DNA from: a virus
DNA: 52,211 nt
IMG/VR virus record: IMGVR_UViG_3300033149_003773
Coordinates: 1-52,211 of that record
Reading direction: 5' to 3' (one strand)
The number at the start of each line of letters is the position of its first letter. Position 1 is the first letter of the stretch. A program made the position numbers and the translations under genes. The notes beneath the pieces are model-generated. The model saw nothing but the letters and a program-made list of their open reading frames with translations, had not been told where the DNA came from and made no database searches. Shown piece after piece: positions 15,380 to 37,452 of the stretch.

Positions 15380-15392
15380 GGGAGTGGTAAGA

Positions 15393-15692
15393 ATGGGTTA
15401 CAAAGTGAGTAACTATCCGTTGGAAAATTTTCCTTACTTGGACGTTGCAAGCTGTAAGCGTTTTGTTCATGCTCACAGGAACGTGTTTGCACGTTCTACC
15501 AGGCGTTATGTGGTTTCTACTCTTCCAACAGCAATAAAAGAAGTGAGTACAAGTCCCGATGGAAACAAAGCATATTGGCTTTGGGTTTTTAGAAGAGGTT
15601 ACTATAGCGTTATACAGTTCGACTCAAAACCGTCAAGAAACGAGATTACAAGAGCGATCAATGAGTCGTACACTGAAGAGTTTAATGATTGA
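15393..15692 (+). CDS. Small protein, family A member 1
   Basis: A 99-residue protein of a four-member family in this window (others at 15836, 16192, 20757). Shared features in order: SCKRFVHAHRN, a central IKEVSTSP, YWLWVF, then YYSVIQF and PSRNEITRAI. The pattern is beta strands followed by a C-terminal helix. ATG 15393 follows GGGAGTGG. No catalytic motif is seen. The stop lies at the edge of hairpin H4. Confidence 0.65.
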   Translation: MGYKVSNYPLENFPYLDVASCKRFVHAHRNVFARSTRRYVVSTLPTAIKEVSTSPDGNKAYWLWVFRRGYYSVIQFDSKPSRNEITRAINESYTEEFND

Positions 15693-15717
15693 CAGTGCGC
15701 TGTAACGGGCGCGCTGT
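15692..15717 (+). terminator. Array hairpin H4
   Basis: ACAGTGCGC pairs with GCGCGCTGT (9 bp, one G-T), loop TGTAACGG, then TCCTTTTG. Same family as H1 and H2. Confidence 0.6.
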
Positions 15718-15751
15718 TCCTTTTGTGGTTTTGTAGTGGTGAATCCGAGTT

Positions 15752-15820
15752 CTTGAGAATTTGAGAAACTGAGAATTCATCAATTCGAGAACTCGAGAAG
15801 TTGAGAATTTGAGAATTTGA
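15752..15820 (+). repeat. TTGAGAATT spacer repeat
   Basis: About nine imperfect copies of a TTGAGAA/TCGAGAA unit in an A/T-rich spacer between hairpin H4 and the Shine-Dalgarno of the next gene. Confidence 0.8.
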
Positions 15821-15835
15821 AAGGGGGTGCGTGAA

Positions 15836-16189
15836 ATGAAATTAAAAGAAGTTTATTATCATGATGACGGTTTCCTGTATTTAGAGGGTGAAAGTTACAC
15901 GGTTCATGTTCATAGGTTGCCGTCAAGTTTTTGTGTCAGTGTTGGGAGTTGTAGAGATTTTGTTTATAGACATCGTAACATTTTTGATAGTTTAACACTT
16001 GTTCATTTGGTATCAAAAAAACCTATAGCGTTTTATGAGGTTGGCATCTCACCATGTGGAACGCATAAAAATTTTTGGATATGGGTTTTTGATAGTGGTA
16101 TCTATTATGTAGTAAAGTTTCATGGTAAACCTTCAAAAAATGAAATTATTGAGGCTGTGAATTTAGTAAAATTTGAAAGGGGGCGGTAA
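15836..16189 (+). CDS. Small protein, family A member 2
   Basis: A 117-residue protein with an extra N-terminal strand region (about 35 residues) before the shared SCRDFVYRHRN. It then has YEVGISP, FWIWVF, YYVVKFH and PSKNEIIEAV as in member 1. ATG 15836 follows GGGGGTG with a six-base spacer, whereas the upstream GTG is itself within the Shine-Dalgarno. It is followed by member 3 with two bases between stop and start. Function unknown. Confidence 0.65.
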   Translation: MKLKEVYYHDDGFLYLEGESYTVHVHRLPSSFCVSVGSCRDFVYRHRNIFDSLTLVHLVSKKPIAFYEVGISPCGTHKNFWIWVFDSGIYYVVKFHGKPSKNEIIEAVNLVKFERGR

Positions 16190-16191
16190 AG

Positions 16192-16533
16192 GTGAGTTAT
16201 AAGGCTAAACATTATTTACTTGATAAAGAATTTCCATATAAGAATTATTTTAGCTGTGAACGTTTTGTGTTAGACAACACAATTCATAGAGGTGCATCAC
16301 GTTGTTTCATCGCATTAACTAACCCTGTTGTCTTGAAAGAGGCGTTCATTTCACCTATAAGGGAAAAGTTGGAGGGACATTCTGGGAGGTTTTGGATGTT
16401 TGAAAAGGGCTGTGTTACAGTTATCGAGTTTGATAGTGATCCTTCATGGGATGAGTTAATGAGTGCTCTATATTATGAATCGTTGGATGCTTTCGATCAT
16501 GAGAAGTTAACACTCAGTGGCGTGCTGATATAG
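16192..16533 (+). CDS. Small protein, family A member 3 (diverged)
   Basis: A 113-residue protein starting at GTG 16192 after GGGGGCGG. The family signature is weaker but in order: SCERFVLDN, VVLKEAFISP, RFWMFEKG, VTVIEF and PSWDELMSAL. It lies directly behind member 2, so a tandem duplication is likely. The C-terminus ends LSGVLI at hairpin H5. Confidence 0.6.
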   Translation: MSYKAKHYLLDKEFPYKNYFSCERFVLDNTIHRGASRCFIALTNPVVLKEAFISPIREKLEGHSGRFWMFEKGCVTVIEFDSDPSWDELMSALYYESLDAFDHEKLTLSGVLI

Positions 16534-16560: not shown

Positions 16561-16633
16561 TTATCAATTTGAGAAGTTGAGAATTTATCAATTCGAGAAT
16601 CTGAGAAGTCGAGAATTTATTAATTTGAGAATG
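16561..16633 (+). repeat. TTGAGAATT spacer repeat
   Basis: Repeats of ATCAATTTGAGAAGTTGAGAA and its variants fill the space between hairpin H5 and the next Shine-Dalgarno. A reading frame happens to run through them but a better start lies downstream. Confidence 0.8.
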
Positions 16634-16648
16634 AAAGGGGTTGAGAAT

Positions 16649-18265: not shown

Positions 18266-18294
18266 AAATTTGAGAATTTAAGAATTTGAGAATG
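18266..18294 (+). repeat. TTGAGAATT spacer repeat
   Basis: AAATTTGAGAATTTAAGAATTTGAGAA-type sequence (two to three units) between hairpin H6 and a GGGAGGG Shine-Dalgarno. Confidence 0.7.
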
Positions 18295-18630: not shown

Positions 18631-18891
18631 TTATTCTGGAAGGTGGACATATAGCTGTTTATAGTTGTTTCTGCTTCGATAAATGCCATAATAAGTCCTT
18701 AAAGTGTTTCTCATGGAACGGTGCATGACGTTAATGAGGCTTTTTCGCTGGTTGATAGTTTTACGTCTCGACTCGAGGATCAAAAGGAAAAACTCGTTTA
18801 TAATGTCCTCTCGTTCTTTGTTGAGAATTGCCCTGATCCCCTTTGGGTATCTTGTCAAAGCAGTATAGAATAATTGTTCAACCTTTGTCAT
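18631..18891 (-). CDS. Possible sigma factor region 2-like small protein
   Basis: An 86-residue basic protein. EREDIINEFFLLILES followed by a basic stretch and INVMHRSMRNTLRTYYG resembles the order in ECF sigma region 2 (the EDLxQExFL helix, then the WLxxIARNxxxDxxR helix that melts the -10). Region 4 is absent, so it would be a partial factor or an anti-host decoy. It overlaps the upstream gene by ATGA and is one of few minus-strand genes inside the early region. The sigma reading is inference from pattern only. Confidence 0.45.
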   Translation of the reverse strand: MTKVEQLFYTALTRYPKGIRAILNKEREDIINEFFLLILESRRKTINQRKSLINVMHRSMRNTLRTYYGIYRSRNNYKQLYVHLPE

Positions 18892-19199
18892 TTATTTACC
18901 CCCTTCCATTTGTAACTGCCTGAGATTTTGTTGATGAGCCAGCGGTTGCCTTCGTCGTCGCGTGCTTCGATCCAACAACTGTTTGAAGAGTCTTTAATTT
19001 CTTCAATGATTACAATGTCGTCTGGAACAGAATCTTTGCTAATACCGCACTTTTCTGCCCCAGAAAACATAGTCTTGTACATGATTGCGATTGTAAATTC
19101 TTCGTCGGTAGCACCAAAGCGTTCTAAGTCTCTTATTAAAACACCGCTACGTTCACCGCTACGCTTGTTCTTGAATGTCATCATCCTGAACCTTTCCAT
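18888..19199 (-). CDS. Hypothetical small protein, partner of the region 2-like gene
   Basis: A 103-residue protein starting MERFRMMTFKNKRSGERSG. ATG 19199 follows GGGAGTG; an upstream ATG at 19217 lacks a good Shine-Dalgarno. The C-terminal half (CWIEARDDEGNRWLINKISG) has beta strands and weakly recalls the end of the protein at 22185-22442 (CAWDKYGCAWGISNL). It is translationally coupled to the next gene. Function unknown. Confidence 0.55.
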   Translation of the reverse strand: MERFRMMTFKNKRSGERSGVLIRDLERFGATDEEFTIAIMYKTMFSGAEKCGISKDSVPDDIVIIEEIKDSSNSCWIEARDDEGNRWLINKISGSYKWKGVNK

Positions 19200-19310
19200 G
19201 CTTTCACTCCCTTTCATGTGTTGTGTAATTTATTGTCTCATATATATATAACATTACCATTGAGGCGATGTAACGACTTGTTTGGATATGATTACATAAA
19301 GATGAATCAC

Positions 19311-19372: not shown

Positions 19373-19420
19373 ATTGAGAATTGGGAAAGTTTGAGAATTC
19401 GAGAAATTCGAGAATTTAGG
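19373..19420 (+). repeat. TTGAGAATT spacer repeat
   Basis: Units ATTGAGAATTGGG, TTTGAGAATTCGAGAA and TTCGAGAATTTAGG between the conserved leader motif and the next Shine-Dalgarno. Confidence 0.75.
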
Positions 19421-19435
19421 AGAGGAGTGATATTG

Positions 19436-19804
19436 ATGGAAGGCAAGGACAGGATAGTTATAGTTGATGTAACGTACGGGTTTTGCGAAGAGAGGCAAGA
19501 GTTCCGTGCTCTACTCAAAGCCTATATTTCTGAGGAAGACGGACTTTTGCCTGAGATATTTAGAGACAAAAGTGAGGACTTTTGGGGTAGTGCATTGACT
19601 TCAACCTGGGGCTGGAGTTCGGAGGAAAGAGATGGATATCGTTATAATCATAAGGAGTTGTATCATCCTGATCTTGAGTTGTTGAGAGATCAAGTAAAAG
19701 ATTATATTAACGATGAGATTGAGCACTTGAGAGAGGTTGTCCATGCCAATGTTTTGGCACATGCTGAGATTCCAGAGCCAGAGCACTATGAGTTTGTGAT
19801 ATAG
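19436..19804 (+). CDS. Small protein, EHYEFVI family member 1
   Basis: A 122-residue protein, first of three tandem paralogues. Shared parts: an N-terminal strand RIVIVDVTYGF, an ALLKAYI strand, TWGW near the middle, YHPDLELLRDQVKDYINDEI and the C-terminus EPEHYEFVI. The C-terminal helix is amphipathic. ATG 19436 follows GGAGAGGAG. Hairpin H8 overlaps the stop. Function unknown. Confidence 0.7.
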   Translation: MEGKDRIVIVDVTYGFCEERQEFRALLKAYISEEDGLLPEIFRDKSEDFWGSALTSTWGWSSEERDGYRYNHKELYHPDLELLRDQVKDYINDEIEHLREVVHANVLAHAEIPEPEHYEFVI

Positions 19805-19824
19805 CGTGCAGAAATGCGCGCTAT
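19801..19824 (+). terminator. Array hairpin H8
   Basis: ATAGCGTGCA pairs with TGCGCGCTAT (10 bp, one G-T), loop GAAA, a stable tetraloop. The TAG stop codon of the preceding gene is part of the left arm. Same family as H1 and H2; T-run weak. Confidence 0.65.
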
Positions 19825-19844
19825 TACTTGAGGAGGTGCTAACA

Positions 19845-20249
19845 ATGTGTGAGCAAAAAATATTTATAGATGTGGAATATCTTTACATTCCCCGCATTCC
19901 ATATTGTGAAAAAGGAGAGTATAGAGCAACAATTTGGGCGTACATTCCAGAGGCGACAGACGTTTTCGTAAATGGTGTAACACGTCCCATATCTAAACGA
20001 TACCAGAACTCTCATATTGCGTTTTTCACTGAACCCTTGCGTCCTACTTGGGGATGGCGATCTGACGGGTATCGCAACGGCTATCGCTATCAGTACATGA
20101 AAATGTATGAACCTGATCTACAAACGTTGCAACAACGAGTCAAGGAATATATTGATAAAGAGATTGAGAAATTACGAAAAGTGGTTGAACAGAATGTTCT
20201 GGCTGCTCACAAAGTTCCAGAGTCAGAGCATTATGAGTTCGTAATATAG
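19845..20249 (+). CDS. Small protein, EHYEFVI family member 2
   Basis: A 134-residue protein starting MCEQKIFIDVEYLYI. It keeps the family order with an insert near residues 38-60 (DVFVNGVTRPISKRYQNS), then PTWGWRSDGYRNGYRYQ, DLQTLQQRVKEYIDKEI and SEHYEFVI. ATG 19845 follows GGAGGTG. The Gly/Arg/Tyr-rich middle is shared with member 1 (RDGYRYNHK). Function unknown. Confidence 0.7.
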   Translation: MCEQKIFIDVEYLYIPRIPYCEKGEYRATIWAYIPEATDVFVNGVTRPISKRYQNSHIAFFTEPLRPTWGWRSDGYRNGYRYQYMKMYEPDLQTLQQRVKEYIDKEIEKLRKVVEQNVLAAHKVPESEHYEFVI

Positions 20250-20267
20250 AGGGTGTAAATGCCCGCT
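20248..20267 (+). terminator. Array hairpin H9 (decayed)
   Basis: AGAGGG and CCCGCT pair except for one mismatch around TGTAAATG. It holds the place of the H8 hairpin after the paralogous gene and appears to be a drifted copy. Confidence 0.45.
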
Positions 20268-20296
20268 GTTACCTTATTCAGAAAGGAGATGTTAAT

Positions 20297-20665
20297 ATGG
20301 CGTGTGAACAGAGGGTAGTTTTAGTTGATGTGTCTTACCAATTCAGAGCAAGAGAGCGCAGATATGAGGCTATGATTAAGTTTTATATCCCCACTGAGGG
20401 TGAGTATCTTCCAGACATATTTATAGACGAAGATACGGATTTTGCAGGTCGACTTCTCACCTATGAGTGGGGAAAGAGAGCTACAGATCGGGAAGGGTAT
20501 TTAGTTGAGTCGTTGCGTGTCTATGGCAACGACCCAGACGAAGTTAGACAGAATGCTAAGGAAAGAATTGAGAAGGAGATCACACGCCTGCGACAGGTAG
20601 TTGAACACAATATTCTGGCTTCTGTCAGAATCCCAGAACCAGAGCACTACGAGTTCGTTATATAA
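20297..20665 (+). CDS. Small protein, EHYEFVI family member 3
   Basis: A 122-residue protein starting MACEQRVVLVDVSYQF. It keeps the YEAMIKFYIP strand, EWGKR in the TWGW position, EVRQNAKERIEKEITRLRQVVEHNILA and EPEHYEFVI. ATG 20297 follows GAAAGGAGAT. The strict conservation of the last seven residues in all three copies, while the middles differ, suggests the C-terminus contacts a partner. Confidence 0.7.
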   Translation: MACEQRVVLVDVSYQFRARERRYEAMIKFYIPTEGEYLPDIFIDEDTDFAGRLLTYEWGKRATDREGYLVESLRVYGNDPDEVRQNAKERIEKEITRLRQVVEHNILASVRIPEPEHYEFVI

Positions 20666-20670
20666 AAATG

Positions 20671-20688
20671 GGGCTCTAAGAGCCCTGT
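20671..20688 (+). terminator. Array hairpin H10
   Basis: GGGCTC, loop TAA, GAGCCC: a perfect 6-bp stem preceded by an A-run and followed by TGTTCTTG. Sequence differs from the H1/H2 family but the position after the gene is the same. Confidence 0.6.
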
Positions 20689-20710
20689 TCTTGCTTGGAG
20701 ATAAGAAGGA

Positions 20711-20740
20711 TTGAGAAATTTGAGAATTTGAGAAAATCGA
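20711..20740 (+). repeat. TTGAGAATT spacer repeat
   Basis: Three TTGAGAA units between hairpin H10 and the GGGGG Shine-Dalgarno at 20745-20749. Confidence 0.75.
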
Positions 20741-20756
20741 GTAAGGGGGTGTTAAG

Positions 20757-21098
20757 ATAAGAAAAGAAGCATTTGATGATCTCTTATTTGTACGGTCAAA
20801 AGAATATGATATTGATACATTCTTCTTACCAGATTCAGTTAATCCATTAGACGCTGTGTCTTGCAGAAATTATGTGCGTGAACACAAAAATGTGTTGAAG
20901 GGTACTCAAGAGTTATACATTAGTCCGATATATCCGACTTTGATTGTAGAGATAGGTGTTTCTCCAGATACCCACCAACGTTCTTATTGGCTTTGGGTTT
21001 TTAGGGAATATAAATATTCCATAATTAGATTTAAGAAAAGTCCATCATATGATGTAGTACAGAGTGCTATAAAGGAAATCAGAGAATTTGAGAAATAA
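20757..21098 (+). CDS. Small protein, family A member 4, probable ATA start
   Basis: A 113-residue frame with the family A line: SCRNYVREHKN, IVEIGVSP, YWLWVF, YSIIRF, SYDVVQSAI. The only ATG/GTG choice giving the family core is GTG 20856, which has no Shine-Dalgarno and would remove about 33 N-terminal residues. Upstream, the frame is open back to ATA 20757, seven bases after GGGGG; the canonical start is missing because ATG appears as ATA. Either ATA is used or the gene is weakened. The next feature, the tmRNA, begins six bases after its stop. Confidence 0.6.
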   Translation: MRKEAFDDLLFVRSKEYDIDTFFLPDSVNPLDAVSCRNYVREHKNVLKGTQELYISPIYPTLIVEIGVSPDTHQRSYWLWVFREYKYSIIRFKKSPSYDVVQSAIKEIREFEK

Positions 21099-21104
21099 TG
21101 TTAT

Positions 21105-21457
21105 GGGGGCGATCGGTTTCGACGGGTTTGAGCTCCCTCAGGAAGCGAGCCGAGTTTTCACCTACTCGTAAAACAGGGTGAGGCACAAACAAGTGCCAAC
21201 AAAGAACCAGTCGCTGCTTGACGAGAAGAGCAGCCGTCCTTACTGAGTTTGATCGGGGCTCAGTATAGGGCGTAAGATCACCGATCGGGCATCCAAGGTT
21301 TTGCCTTTTCGGCTTTGGATGACATGTTAGAAAAGGCTAAGGTGAATATAACCTGTCCGTGGGTTGTTTCACCTGACATTTAAAACACGGACTGCGCTCG
21401 GAGATGCCTGAGGGTACTCACTCTCGGACGGGGGTTCGATTCCCCCCGCCTCCACCA
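21105..21457 (+). ncRNA. ssrA: Transfer-messenger RNA (tmRNA)
   Basis: A 353-base complete tmRNA. The 5' end GGGGGCG pairs with CGCCTCC before ACCA (one G-T pair), and the CCA is encoded. The T-arm reads GGGGGTTCGATTCCCCC, and the D-loop region GGTTTCGACGGG is typical. The tag frame starts at GCC 21195 and reads ANKEPVAA, with TGA at 21219-21221. It rescues stalled ribosomes by adding the tag for proteolysis. By memory, tag and core sequence are close to those of Thermotoga. It is whole, not a 3' fragment left by integration. Confidence 0.95.
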
Positions 21458-21738
21458 GATAAAGCTTTCACAAGGATTGTAATACTACTTGAGTGTCTCG
21501 AGGATTGCCGTAGAGACATTGAGAAGCCCCACGGGATACTTACTACCCTTAAAACGTTTTGAGCTCGCTATGACGATCCTCGCTTTACTGAGAACGATTT
21601 TGAGAAACTGGGAGCTTGAGAATTTGAGAATTTATCAATTTGAGAATTTGGAAAGGAGTGGCGAGAAAGGAGGGAGAAGAAAGTGGATAGGTATTATTGC
21701 ATTTGCCGAGCGTGTGTTCCGAATGTAGGTGGAGGTGA
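21458..21738 (+). other. Non-coding stretch after the tmRNA
   Basis: About 280 bases with no convincing gene; a 79-codon frame here lacks a Shine-Dalgarno and runs through spacer repeats. CGAGGAT near 21500 can pair with ATCCTCG near 21575, and GTCTC with GAGAC inside it, so it may fold. TTGAGAATT repeats occupy about 21600-21650. I see no T-rich terminator for the tmRNA. Confidence 0.4.
21600..21650 (+). repeat. TTGAGAATT spacer repeat
   Basis: TTGAGAAACTGGGAGCTTGAG and AATTTGAGAATTTATCAATT-type units, matching the spacer at 16561-16633 closely (ATCAATTTGAGAA core). Confidence 0.75.
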
Positions 21739-21744
21739 ATGGTT

Positions 21745-21963
21745 ATGTGGATACAAAGTAAAAAGGTGATATTTAATACGAACAATGTGGATTACTACTT
21801 TATATCTTGTTGTGCTGCGAAAAGTGTGGATGGTAAAGATATATATGATGTGTGCATGCACTCCGAGGGGCACGATATAGTTATTTGTAGTTTTGAAAAT
21901 GAAAATGATGCCAAACGTTTTTTAAATAGGATAGCGGATAAATTGAGGGCTTTAAGTTTGTAA
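21745..21963 (+). CDS. Hypothetical small protein
   Basis: A 72-residue protein starting MWIQSKKVIFNTNNVDYYF. It has two adjacent Cys (SCCAAKS) and further Cys and His (DVCMHSEGHD), then a C-terminal helix (NDAKRFLNRIADKLRAL). ATG 21745 lies at a better distance from GGAGGTG than ATG 21739. Metal binding is possible but unproven. Confidence 0.55.
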   Translation: MWIQSKKVIFNTNNVDYYFISCCAAKSVDGKDIYDVCMHSEGHDIVICSFENENDAKRFLNRIADKLRALSL

Positions 21964-21982
21964 GACGAGGAGGGAAAGAGGA

Positions 21983-22198
21983 ATGAAACTTTTTAGAGTT
22001 ATATATAGAAGCGGGACCAAAAGGCATAGAAACGTTGTTGAGGTTATTGCCAGAGATAAAGAACATGCACGCAATAAGATATTATCACGTCATGCGAGTG
22101 AAGCGAAAAGAGGGCTCGAGATTGTGTCTATTGAGCCTATTCGAGATGTCTCGTTGCCAGAACAAGGAAAAAGGAAGGATAAAGATGAGCACAGATAA
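21983..22198 (+). CDS. Hypothetical small basic protein
   Basis: A 71-residue, strongly basic protein starting MKLFRVIYRSGTKRHRN. One strand-helix unit (NVVEVIARDKEHARNKIL) recalls small nucleic-acid-binding folds, followed by a charged, probably disordered tail. ATG 21983 follows GAGGAGGGAAAGAGGA. It overlaps the next gene by 14 bases. Confidence 0.55.
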   Translation: MKLFRVIYRSGTKRHRNVVEVIARDKEHARNKILSRHASEAKRGLEIVSIEPIRDVSLPEQGKRKDKDEHR

Positions 22199-23262: not shown

Positions 23263-23976
23263 ATGGGGAAAGGCAGGAAAAAGAAAATCACAAAGAAAGA
23301 GGAAAGTACTGTACAAGGTAAGATACTTACACCCGATCTTGAACGATTGCTACGGTCTTATATAGTTGTGCAAAGACAAAGGCTATCGGCAGAGCTAAGG
23401 ACACTTTCACTTGGTGGTGATGAAATTCTCGATAGGATGTTAGACATGGTCAAGCATGTGGAAAAGGAACTGGCAAAACAGATTCAGAAAAAGATAGAAA
23501 ACACAGAGTTGTATCATAACTTTTTTGCTCGAGTTAAAGGTGTGGGAACATCAACAGCAGCGAAGATAATCTTCTATGTAAAAGACATTGAACGTTTTCC
23601 TACGGTGTCGAAGCTGTGGCGTTATGCAGGGTATGGCGTTACAAACGGAAAAGCGGACACTTTGAGAAAAGGTGAAAAGTTGTGTTACAATCCACGATTC
23701 AAAGGCATGCTGTATTACACGGGTATACTGCTTATTAGCAAATCTAAGAAATATCGTGCATACTACGAAAAAGCGAAGGAGTATTACCGTATCAATAGAC
23801 CACAATGGAATAAGATGCACATATTTAGGGCGGCATTAAGAAAAACCATTAAGCTATTCTTATCACACCTATGGGAAGTTTGGCGAAAAATCGAGGGGTT
23901 ACCAGTTAGAAAGCCTTATGCGATAGAATACTGCGGGCATACCACGGTTTATAAGCCAGAAGATTTCTTTGATTAA
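23263..23976 (+). CDS. IS110-type C-terminal (Tnp_20) domain protein, stand-alone
   Basis: A 237-residue basic protein. After a helical segment it has a helix-hairpin-helix FARVKGVGTSTAAKIIFYV and FPTVSKLWRYAGYG, the pattern of the IS116/IS110/IS902 C-terminal domain, then a long helical part (HIFRAALRKTIKLFLSHLW) and a C-terminal YAIEYCGHTTVYKP. The N-terminal DEDD RuvC-like domain of full IS110 enzymes is absent, and the usual active serine is not evident. I recall similar stand-alone proteins in many phages, labelled transposase. A DNA-structure binding role is more likely than transposition. Confidence 0.7.
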   Translation: MGKGRKKKITKKEESTVQGKILTPDLERLLRSYIVVQRQRLSAELRTLSLGGDEILDRMLDMVKHVEKELAKQIQKKIENTELYHNFFARVKGVGTSTAAKIIFYVKDIERFPTVSKLWRYAGYGVTNGKADTLRKGEKLCYNPRFKGMLYYTGILLISKSKKYRAYYEKAKEYYRINRPQWNKMHIFRAALRKTIKLFLSHLWEVWRKIEGLPVRKPYAIEYCGHTTVYKPEDFFD

Positions 23977-35665: not shown

Positions 35666-37123
35666 TTAAAATTTATTGAGATAAGGTCCGTAATAGGACA
35701 TAAGCTGGAGACAGAAAATTTGAGTACTACCATATGGTATTCCATAGATTTTACCATTGGGTGCAAGGACGCCACCATTCCATTTATTATCTCCAGATAG
35801 ACTTCCAAACAAAGTTAGTTGTTGCGTTTCAGGGTCTATCTCTAAAACTTGGGTACTAAAACATGGTACTCCATAAATTTTTCCGTTTGGTGCTAATACT
35901 CCACCAAGCCATTTAACTGCATCGGAAGATAAACTTCCAAATAAAGTTGTAGATTGTGTCTCGGGGTTAATTTCTAATACCTGCGTGCTATTTCGTGGTA
36001 TTCCATAGATTTTGCCGTTGGGAGCGAGAACACCACCCCACCATTTACCACCTCCGGGCAAACTACCAAATAAAGTTAGCTCATGCGTTTCGGGATTGAT
36101 TTCTAAAACTTGCGCGCTACTATATGGTATTGCATATATCTTTCCGTTAGATGCTAAGACTCCACCTGTCCATTTAGCTACATCAGAAGATAGATTACCA
36201 AACAAAGTTAGTTCGTGTGTCTCTGGGTCTATTTCCAAAACTTGTTCACTATTATACGGCATTCCGAAAATTTTTCCATTAGGTGCAAGAACACCTCCGC
36301 ACCATTTATAATCTCCGTCGAGATTTCCAAACAAAGTTGTATTTTGCGTCTCGGGGTCGATCTCTAACACCTGCGTGCTACTATGCGGTATTGCGTATAT
36401 CTTACCGTTGGGAGCGAGAACACCACCACGCCATTTACCCGTTCCAGTTAGGCTTCCAAACAAAGTTACATTTTGTGTCTCTGGGTCTATTTCCAGTACC
36501 TGCGTGCTGTTATTTGGTATAGCATAAATTTTGCCGTTGGGAGCGAGGACGCCACCTGCCCACTTAAGTGCTCCACTCAAATTTTCAAACAGACTAACAA
36601 ACTTCATCGTTGGGTCGGTATCGAGAATGTTAATGCTTTTTGCTCGTATTTCGTTAGCATGCTTTCCGTCTAACATATCGGCGTTAAGCCCTTCTACGAG
36701 CTTACCCCGCGCGTTCGTTCCGAGAGAGAACGGCGCGTCTGGAGTATCTATTGTGTGCTGTGCTGTTATGGTTGTCGGTGTATCTTTCTTTACCATGGCA
36801 TTATCCAAACCATCTATGCTATTTTGTAAAGCATTGATGTCTTCTGCATCAACGTAGTCTCCTTTTGTTTTATAAGTAGCATACAACTCAACACCATCAT
36901 ATGTGGGTGAAAAAGTTACAGTATTGTATGTTTTAAAAAAGTTATCATAGTCACCAATAGTATAGTCTGTTCCCTCTATCAACTGAGTGCCCGTCTTACC
37001 TGCCTGTGTCCATATCTCTAAATCAAAAAAGTTATCATGTGCAAGATGTTGAGGTGCAGTAGAACCATAAATAATTTCGTCAGTTACTTGCGTTCCTGAC
37101 TCATTGTAGTTAAATTTATCCAC
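35666..37123 (-). CDS. Tail fibre with seven-bladed beta-propeller
   Basis: A 485-residue protein. Residues 1-90 form a tail-binding beta module (FDLEIWTQAGKTGTQLIEGT, VTFSPTYDGVELYATYKT); 90-170 include the common fibre motif GLNADMLDGKHANEI; 175-470 are seven repeats of 41-43 residues with the frame LFGxL...KWxGGVLAPNGKIYxIP and STQVLEIDPET, so a seven-bladed propeller is likely. The C-terminus (FCLQLMSYYGPYLNKF) may close the ring. It is a candidate receptor-binding protein. Start GTG 37123 lies six bases after GTGAGGTG. Confidence 0.8.
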   Translation of the reverse strand: MDKFNYNESGTQVTDEIIYGSTAPQHLAHDNFFDLEIWTQAGKTGTQLIEGTDYTIGDYDNFFKTYNTVTFSPTYDGVELYATYKTKGDYVDAEDINALQNSIDGLDNAMVKKDTPTTITAQHTIDTPDAPFSLGTNARGKLVEGLNADMLDGKHANEIRAKSINILDTDPTMKFVSLFENLSGALKWAGGVLAPNGKIYAIPNNSTQVLEIDPETQNVTLFGSLTGTGKWRGGVLAPNGKIYAIPHSSTQVLEIDPETQNTTLFGNLDGDYKWCGGVLAPNGKIFGMPYNSEQVLEIDPETHELTLFGNLSSDVAKWTGGVLASNGKIYAIPYSSAQVLEINPETHELTLFGSLPGGGKWWGGVLAPNGKIYGIPRNSTQVLEINPETQSTTLFGSLSSDAVKWLGGVLAPNGKIYGVPCFSTQVLEIDPETQQLTLFGSLSGDNKWNGGVLAPNGKIYGIPYGSTQIFCLQLMSYYGPYLNKF

Positions 37124-37128
37124 AAAGA

Positions 37129-37452
37129 TCACCTCACGTCAGGCAATACTTTTACCAATTCCCTCTGACAAATTGTATCACCTTGGTAGGTATAGTAGAA
37201 AGCAATATAGTAGGCTTTAGGACAGTCAACCATAGTCTTATCTGCATAAAACCTTACATAGTAAATGCCTGTTTCACCAGAATCAATCACATCTAATTGC
37301 ATTACTTGTTGTGGCTTAGATTCTGCTGTCTCAAGCCATGCTTCGTAAGTATCGGGAGTTATATTAAGGTAGGAATCGTCAATCTGAAGTTCTTGGCATT
37401 CGTATTTTAAGTATATTGTTGAACCCCATTCGACAGCTATCCCGCTTACCAT
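37129..37452 (-). CDS. Small baseplate/fibre beta protein
   Basis: A 107-residue protein starting MVSGIAVEWGSTIYLKYECQ. A single beta sandwich by pattern (TGIYYVRFYADKTMVDCP, AYYIAFYYTYQGDTICQ), like BppU or fibre-base domains that make one immunoglobulin-like fold. ATG 37452 follows GAGGTGA with six bases. It probably belongs with the propeller fibre that follows. A similar layout is seen at 50752-51051. Confidence 0.5.
   Translation of the reverse strand: MVSGIAVEWGSTIYLKYECQELQIDDSYLNITPDTYEAWLETAESKPQQVMQLDVIDSGETGIYYVRFYADKTMVDCPKAYYIAFYYTYQGDTICQRELVKVLPDVR

Follow-up and report, generated by a model that had tools for sequence, protein, structure and literature searches.

Is a tmRNA gene carried by a phage a working part of its equipment for infection, or is it a captured bacterial gene or the trace of an integration event? 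Phage tmRNAs are already on record: PMC9004378 counts them in 402 of 18,146 phage genomes (2.3%), which makes their description as known but rare in the first-pass annotation of this locus a fair one, and the phages listed in PMC4131195 include Bacillus phage G and the mycobacteriophages Bxz1, Cali and Wildcat. They have also been reported in Bradyrhizobium elkanii phages (PMC12632393), as well as in Streptomyces BE1/BE2 phages. In Wildcat the tmRNA is described as the most highly expressed lytic gene (PMC7474061), and the roles put forward in PMC9004378 are to maintain the translation machinery that the phage has hijacked or to degrade host proteins selectively. We examined a tmRNA gene in a viral record of 52,211 bases (IMG/VR IMGVR_UViG_3300033149_003773); the window designates this whole record, and all coordinates are positions in it.

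A complete one-piece tmRNA gene

ARAGORN called a single gene across the window, a tmRNA at 21105-21457 (+) with the tag ANKEPVAA* at nt 91-117, and the search of the window with Rfam 15 placed family RF00023 at boundaries identical to the single base. The Rfam match extends over model positions 1-374 of 374 with 181.5 bits (E 2.1e-72), for a gathering cut-off of 47 bits, and RF00023 is the sole Rfam family exceeding its gathering score in the window. The folding energy of the gene lies 6.15 sd below that of 100 dinucleotide shuffles, of which 0/100 were as good. The presence of a complete one-piece tmRNA gene at this position is confirmed: the first-pass annotation had placed it exactly to the base, and the low Infernal score that it had named as the outcome speaking against the gene was not seen. 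The gene, its parts and its immediate neighbour are the following:

20757..21098, + strand: small phage gene ending 6 nt before the tmRNA (ORF call; paralogues)
21105..21457, + strand: tmRNA (ssrA), one-piece, 353 nt, CCA encoded (ARAGORN and Rfam RF00023)
21105..21111, + strand: acceptor stem 5' strand GGGGGCG, pairing with 21447-21453 (7/7 pairs counting G-U)
21151..21181, + strand: pseudoknot 1 (pair check)
21182..21197, + strand: 5-bp hairpin GGCAC-AAACAA-GTGCC (folding and pair check)
21195..21221, + strand: tag reading frame GCC...TGA, ANKEPVAA* (ARAGORN and pair/frame check)
21213..21234, + strand: helix P5, GCTGCT/AGCAGC, which encloses the end of the tag and the stop (6/6 pairs)
21241..21286, + strand: pseudoknot 2 (pair check; one arm by eye)
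21291..21337, + strand: pseudoknot 3, ATCCAAGG/CTTTGGAT and GCCTTTTC/GAAAAGGC (8/8 and 8/8 pairs, G-U allowed)
21340..21392, + strand: pseudoknot 4, AGGTGAA/TTCACCT and GTCCGTG/CACGGAC (7/7 and 7/7 pairs)
21430..21457, + strand: T-arm (GGGGG TTCGATT CCCCC), acceptor 3' strand, discriminator A and CCA (Rfam and pair check)

The acceptor pairing, encoded CCA, tag frame and T-arm claimed from a first reading of the letters were each recovered pair by pair, and the tag called by ARAGORN is the one that had been read. The tRNA-like domain comprises the seven acceptor pairs, the 5-bp T-arm, a D-loop analogue, GGTTTCGACGGG and the terminal ACCA. The third acceptor pair is a G-U, which we take to be of the alanine identity type. 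Helix P2 forms 11 of 13 pairs within the stretch tested. The stems of all four pseudoknots pair: in the first, CGAGT/ACTCG (21151-21155/21164-21168) is followed by a second stem joining TCACC to the GGGTGA arm (21158-21162/21176-21181), and in the second, TACTGAG/CTCAGTA (21241-21247/21259-21265) is combined with GATCGG at 21251-21256 and CCGATC at 21281-21286, the 5' arm of this last stem being located by eye, as another copy of GATCGG occurs earlier, at 21111.

The tag frame opens with the resume codon GCC at nt 91, about 12 nt past the arm of pseudoknot 1 and with an A at -4, and closes with TGA. PMC2481249 places the resume codon 12 nt past this pseudoknot and describes the -4 residue, A86, as near-invariant and functionally required. 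The agreement on both points supports the frame, and a GCA further upstream in the same frame, at nt 79, which fails both (T at -4, adjoining the pseudoknot), was rejected as resume codon. The hairpin at 21182..21197 holds the resume codon within its 3' arm and the -4 A within its loop; we dropped it as an oddity since, among the matches listed, a resume-codon hairpin of at least 4 bp is found in 40 of the 43 one-piece tmRNAs of the viral comparison, a set with many near-copies of each other.

Phage genome and gene context

The record carries an exact 114-base terminal repeat and is therefore probably complete, as a circular genome of about 52.1 kb. Its gene families identify it as a tailed phage: a terminase, a Mu-type portal, a head protease, a capsid E, a decoration protein D and a tape measure, together with a DnaB-type helicase-primase, a Sak4-like annealing protein, a RusA-like resolvase, exonucleases and a C5 methyltransferase. 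The Pfam scan covered 83 ORFs (10, 10, 10 and 53) of a window that contains 171 ORFs of at least 60 aa, many of them overlapping. The terminal repeat, the phage gene families and the repeat arrays around the gene bear out its earlier description as phage-borne.

The small gene lying 6 nt upstream of the tmRNA has three paralogues at 15384, 15827 and 16192 (15.4-16.5 kb). Its form with an ATG, GTG or TTG start is 20856-21098, and homology to the paralogues begins near 20757, where an ATA start following a strong ribosome-binding site is possible. No sigma-70-like site was found on the + strand within 20600-22000, and the small gene and the tmRNA likely share one transcript. An assembly chimera is unlikely, because this close neighbour has paralogues elsewhere in the genome and the arrays of one 8-base repeat stand both before the small gene and after the tmRNA.

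The repeat, T[TC]GAGAA(N), forms arrays of 2-6 units on the + strand of the early region (15753-15816, 16569-16648, 18270-18293, 19374-19415, 20711-20735 and 21600-21647), most of them immediately preceding a small gene's ribosome-binding site. It is present in 43 units in 13.8-25.0 kb, for 4.3 expected and a maximum of 12 in 200 simulations. The arrays have no Rfam match, similar units occur in the related viral contigs L149, L150 and L151, and they could perhaps act as protein-bound regulatory leaders. The small genes of this region include two repeated families, one of four copies (15384-16533 and 20757-21098) and one of three (19436-20665); four copies scanned singly gave no Pfam match at E <= 0.01.

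A likely role in ribosome rescue and the question of the tag

A search of the window for SmpB (PF01668) returned 0 matches, whereas the same search was positive in 10 of 14 controls, the four silent ones being archaea; a phage in which no SmpB is detected would presumably need that of its host. Huge phages, in comparison, are reported to carry tmRNAs and SmpB (PMC7162821). We consider it likely that the gene encodes a functional tmRNA providing the tailed phage with extra ribosome rescue during infection through host SmpB. It would probably be transcribed together with the small upstream gene, have its ends matured by host RNases and be charged with alanine by the host alanyl-tRNA synthetase. 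Bound by host SmpB, it would then enter ribosomes stalled on broken messages and add Ala followed by ANKEPVAA, which would act as a degradation tag directing the products to proteolysis; the ribosomes would be recycled during infection, to the presumed benefit of the phage. Given the lack of a detected phage SmpB, supplementing the host tmRNA system is a simpler reading than replacing or redirecting it.

The tag is the remaining point of question for this role. As a comparison set, a pattern of the tmRNA 5' end was searched in viral contigs and gave at least 120 stretches; ARAGORN found a tmRNA in 98 of 120 among the matches listed, 43 one-piece and 55 two-piece, counts that give no rate since many of these stretches may be host flanks or prophage junctions. 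Among these matches, tags of eight residues are found in 3/98 and shorter ones in 0/98, and the ends are LAA in 80/98, AA in 91/98 and VAA in 1/98. According to PMC11915505 the commonest tag length is 10, and tags of only 2 residues are reported there. With its short length and rare end, ANKEPVAA still falls inside the known range. A degenerate 27-base pattern for ANKEPVAA gave 2 stretches in cellular genome contigs, neither with an ARAGORN tmRNA, and 0 in viral contigs; an ANxEPVAA pattern gave 6 viral stretches with 0 tmRNAs among them, and a Thermotoga-like ANEPVAxAA pattern 0 stretches in viral contigs.

These features raise the alternative that host proteases would spare, slow or reroute stalled products bearing the phage tag, as compared with host-tagged ones. 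It is the best placed of the rival readings and nevertheless improbable. It draws on a tag that ties the shortest among the viral matches listed, that departs from their dominant LAA end, without which recognition by ClpXP is not assured, and that differs from AEDNFALAA or AEENYALAA, the tags seen in the majority of the closest cellular tmRNAs found. Against it, a two-alanine end is the rule among the viral tags listed, and the Thermotoga tag, to which the first-pass annotation likened that of the phage, contains EPVA and ends in VAA, so that the phage tag may simply match that of its host; a literature search for the Thermotoga tag strings did not return them. In its specific form, in which the phage tmRNA would overwrite the host degradation tag and the short, proline-bearing, non-LAA ANKEPVAA would be handled differently by ClpXP and its adaptors, the proposal is slightly less probable still. 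Tag overwriting, if true, would spare or reroute the products tagged in the course of infection and would still free the ribosomes, and the unusual tag offers a testable case of such possible swapping.

The reading as extra ribosome rescue concerns a tmRNA that is well conserved and complete in structure, in a phage of medium size for which no tRNA gene was called; a tmRNA need therefore not accompany a large set of translation genes. The tmRNA of phage G is located among tRNA genes, has a score of 67.6 bits and encodes the tag AKLNITNNELQVA, whereas the present one is the only tRNA-like gene of a 52-kb genome and scores 181.5 bits. That of Melnitz is described as a two-piece form with a glutamine riboswitch (PMC9004378), in contrast to the one-piece form found here. 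As phage tmRNAs are already published in general, the present gene is a sound additional example with an unusually short tag.

Relatives, sister contigs and origin of the gene

With the bacterial one-piece ssrA of RF00023 the gene shares the full-length match (1-374), all domains, the tag frame and the CCA. It differs from these members in its phage location and its tag, and it is at most 73% identical to the 19 comparison tmRNAs aligned (best end-to-end identity 73.4%, with tag AEENYALAA), which are not a fair sample because most of them had been picked as best hits. By blastn, two records of the phages collection cover 24% and 10% of the gene, and three plasmid records at most 21%. In the G004 phylum (Bacillota; locus L002 is titled Oscillospiraceae), 248 of 398 genomes match it at E <= 0.001, nearly all of the matches listed falling in the conserved 3' part, with 87% over 76 nt as the best among them; in 63 genomes of the G169 class, which partly overlap these 398, the best match reaches 90% over 76 nt. 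At E <= 1e-10, a match is found in 1 of 200 genomes of the G005 phylum (Gammaproteobacteria) vs at least about 62 of 398 in the G004 phylum, so that, among the genomes searched in the two phyla compared, the tmRNA leans to Bacillota rather than Pseudomonadota. A near-identical tmRNA was not found in the 398, 63 and 200 genomes sampled, which cover two phyla, and the exact identity to a host gene that the first-pass annotation had set as a sign of recent capture was not encountered there. The terminase and helicase of the phage do not point to a host: none of their matches among phage records reaches 60% identity, the hosts concerned are scattered, and in the 63 genomes of the G169 class no terminase match was obtained at E <= 1e-60. 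A composition estimate gave an optimum near 50 °C and was set aside as too rough.

Closer relatives are found among viral contigs, where the terminase retrieves three at about 80% identity and the helicase matches three places at 76%. RF00023 has no match in three terminase-related viral records, ARAGORN finds no tmRNA in L149-L154 and cmscan none in L149, L150, L151 and L153; two more distant records, G451 and G452, also lack an RF00023 match. Most of the sister contigs compared are fragments, and the lack of a tmRNA in G002 (49,361 bases) was set aside as uninformative since this contig breaks inside the same variable region, which leaves L150 as the only contig informative on absence. L150 carries relatives of the gene family at 19.4-20.7 kb and of the gene at 23263-23976, its family member not being assignable to one particular copy of the window. 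The interval between both relatives measures about 700 bases and has no tmRNA, for an equivalent of 2.6 kb with the tmRNA in the window. A search of viral contigs for this small-gene family gave no further relatives. On the evidence of this one contig, the tmRNA looks accessory in this phage group, and it is probably not essential to this type of phage, as sister contigs seem to manage without it; these offer a natural with/without comparison of the advantage that a ribosome rescue RNA of its own may give a phage.

Such an accessory distribution, together with the proximity to Bacillota tmRNAs among those compared, would fit a host tmRNA gained by recombination and kept without selected function. 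This origin is improbable, to about the same degree as tag overwriting: all helices and the -4 A are intact in spite of only 73% identity to the best cellular tmRNA measured, and a neutral copy so diverged should show broken parts. The argument would not apply to a copy captured recently from a host outside the sample.

Two further readings are much less probable than this one. The RNA could be a decoy titrating host SmpB or blocking host trans-translation, as proposed for the RNA of mycobacteriophage DS6A, a tmRNA-related phage RNA like the present one which, as described in PMC4131195, has little beyond the tRNA-like domain; the same source presents a molecule of this TLD-only kind as a strong inhibitor of tmRNA, perhaps by SmpB titration, and the lack of a detected SmpB in the phage would fit. 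The present gene, in contrast, retains everything, including the whole mRNA-like domain with its tag frame and pseudoknots, while a tRNA-like domain would suffice for a decoy, which makes this reading very unlikely. Least probable of all is an integration scar, already discounted in the first-pass annotation: tmRNA genes commonly serve as integration sites, and Moorella phage MCACPph1 matches the 3'-terminal 34 nt of the gene (97%) inside its annotated integrase gene, presumably as its attachment site, but it has this 3' end only, whereas the present gene is entire, is surrounded by small phage genes and has no integrase among the 83 ORFs scanned with Pfam, the only recombinase-like protein being that at 23263-23976.

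This 237-aa protein has one IS110-type domain (PF02371) as its only Pfam match, and is classed as transposase in PHROGs (phrog_4285). It is retained in sister contigs at 46% identity and is similarly short there, and it probably represents a fragment that has been co-opted, not a mobile element. The otherwise plus-strand early region contains two small ORFs on the minus strand, 18631-18891 and 18888-19217, which are possible regulators. Further downstream, the minus strand encodes at 35666-37132 a 488-aa protein that matches a DUF6923 repeat and may be a surface or tail-fibre protein.
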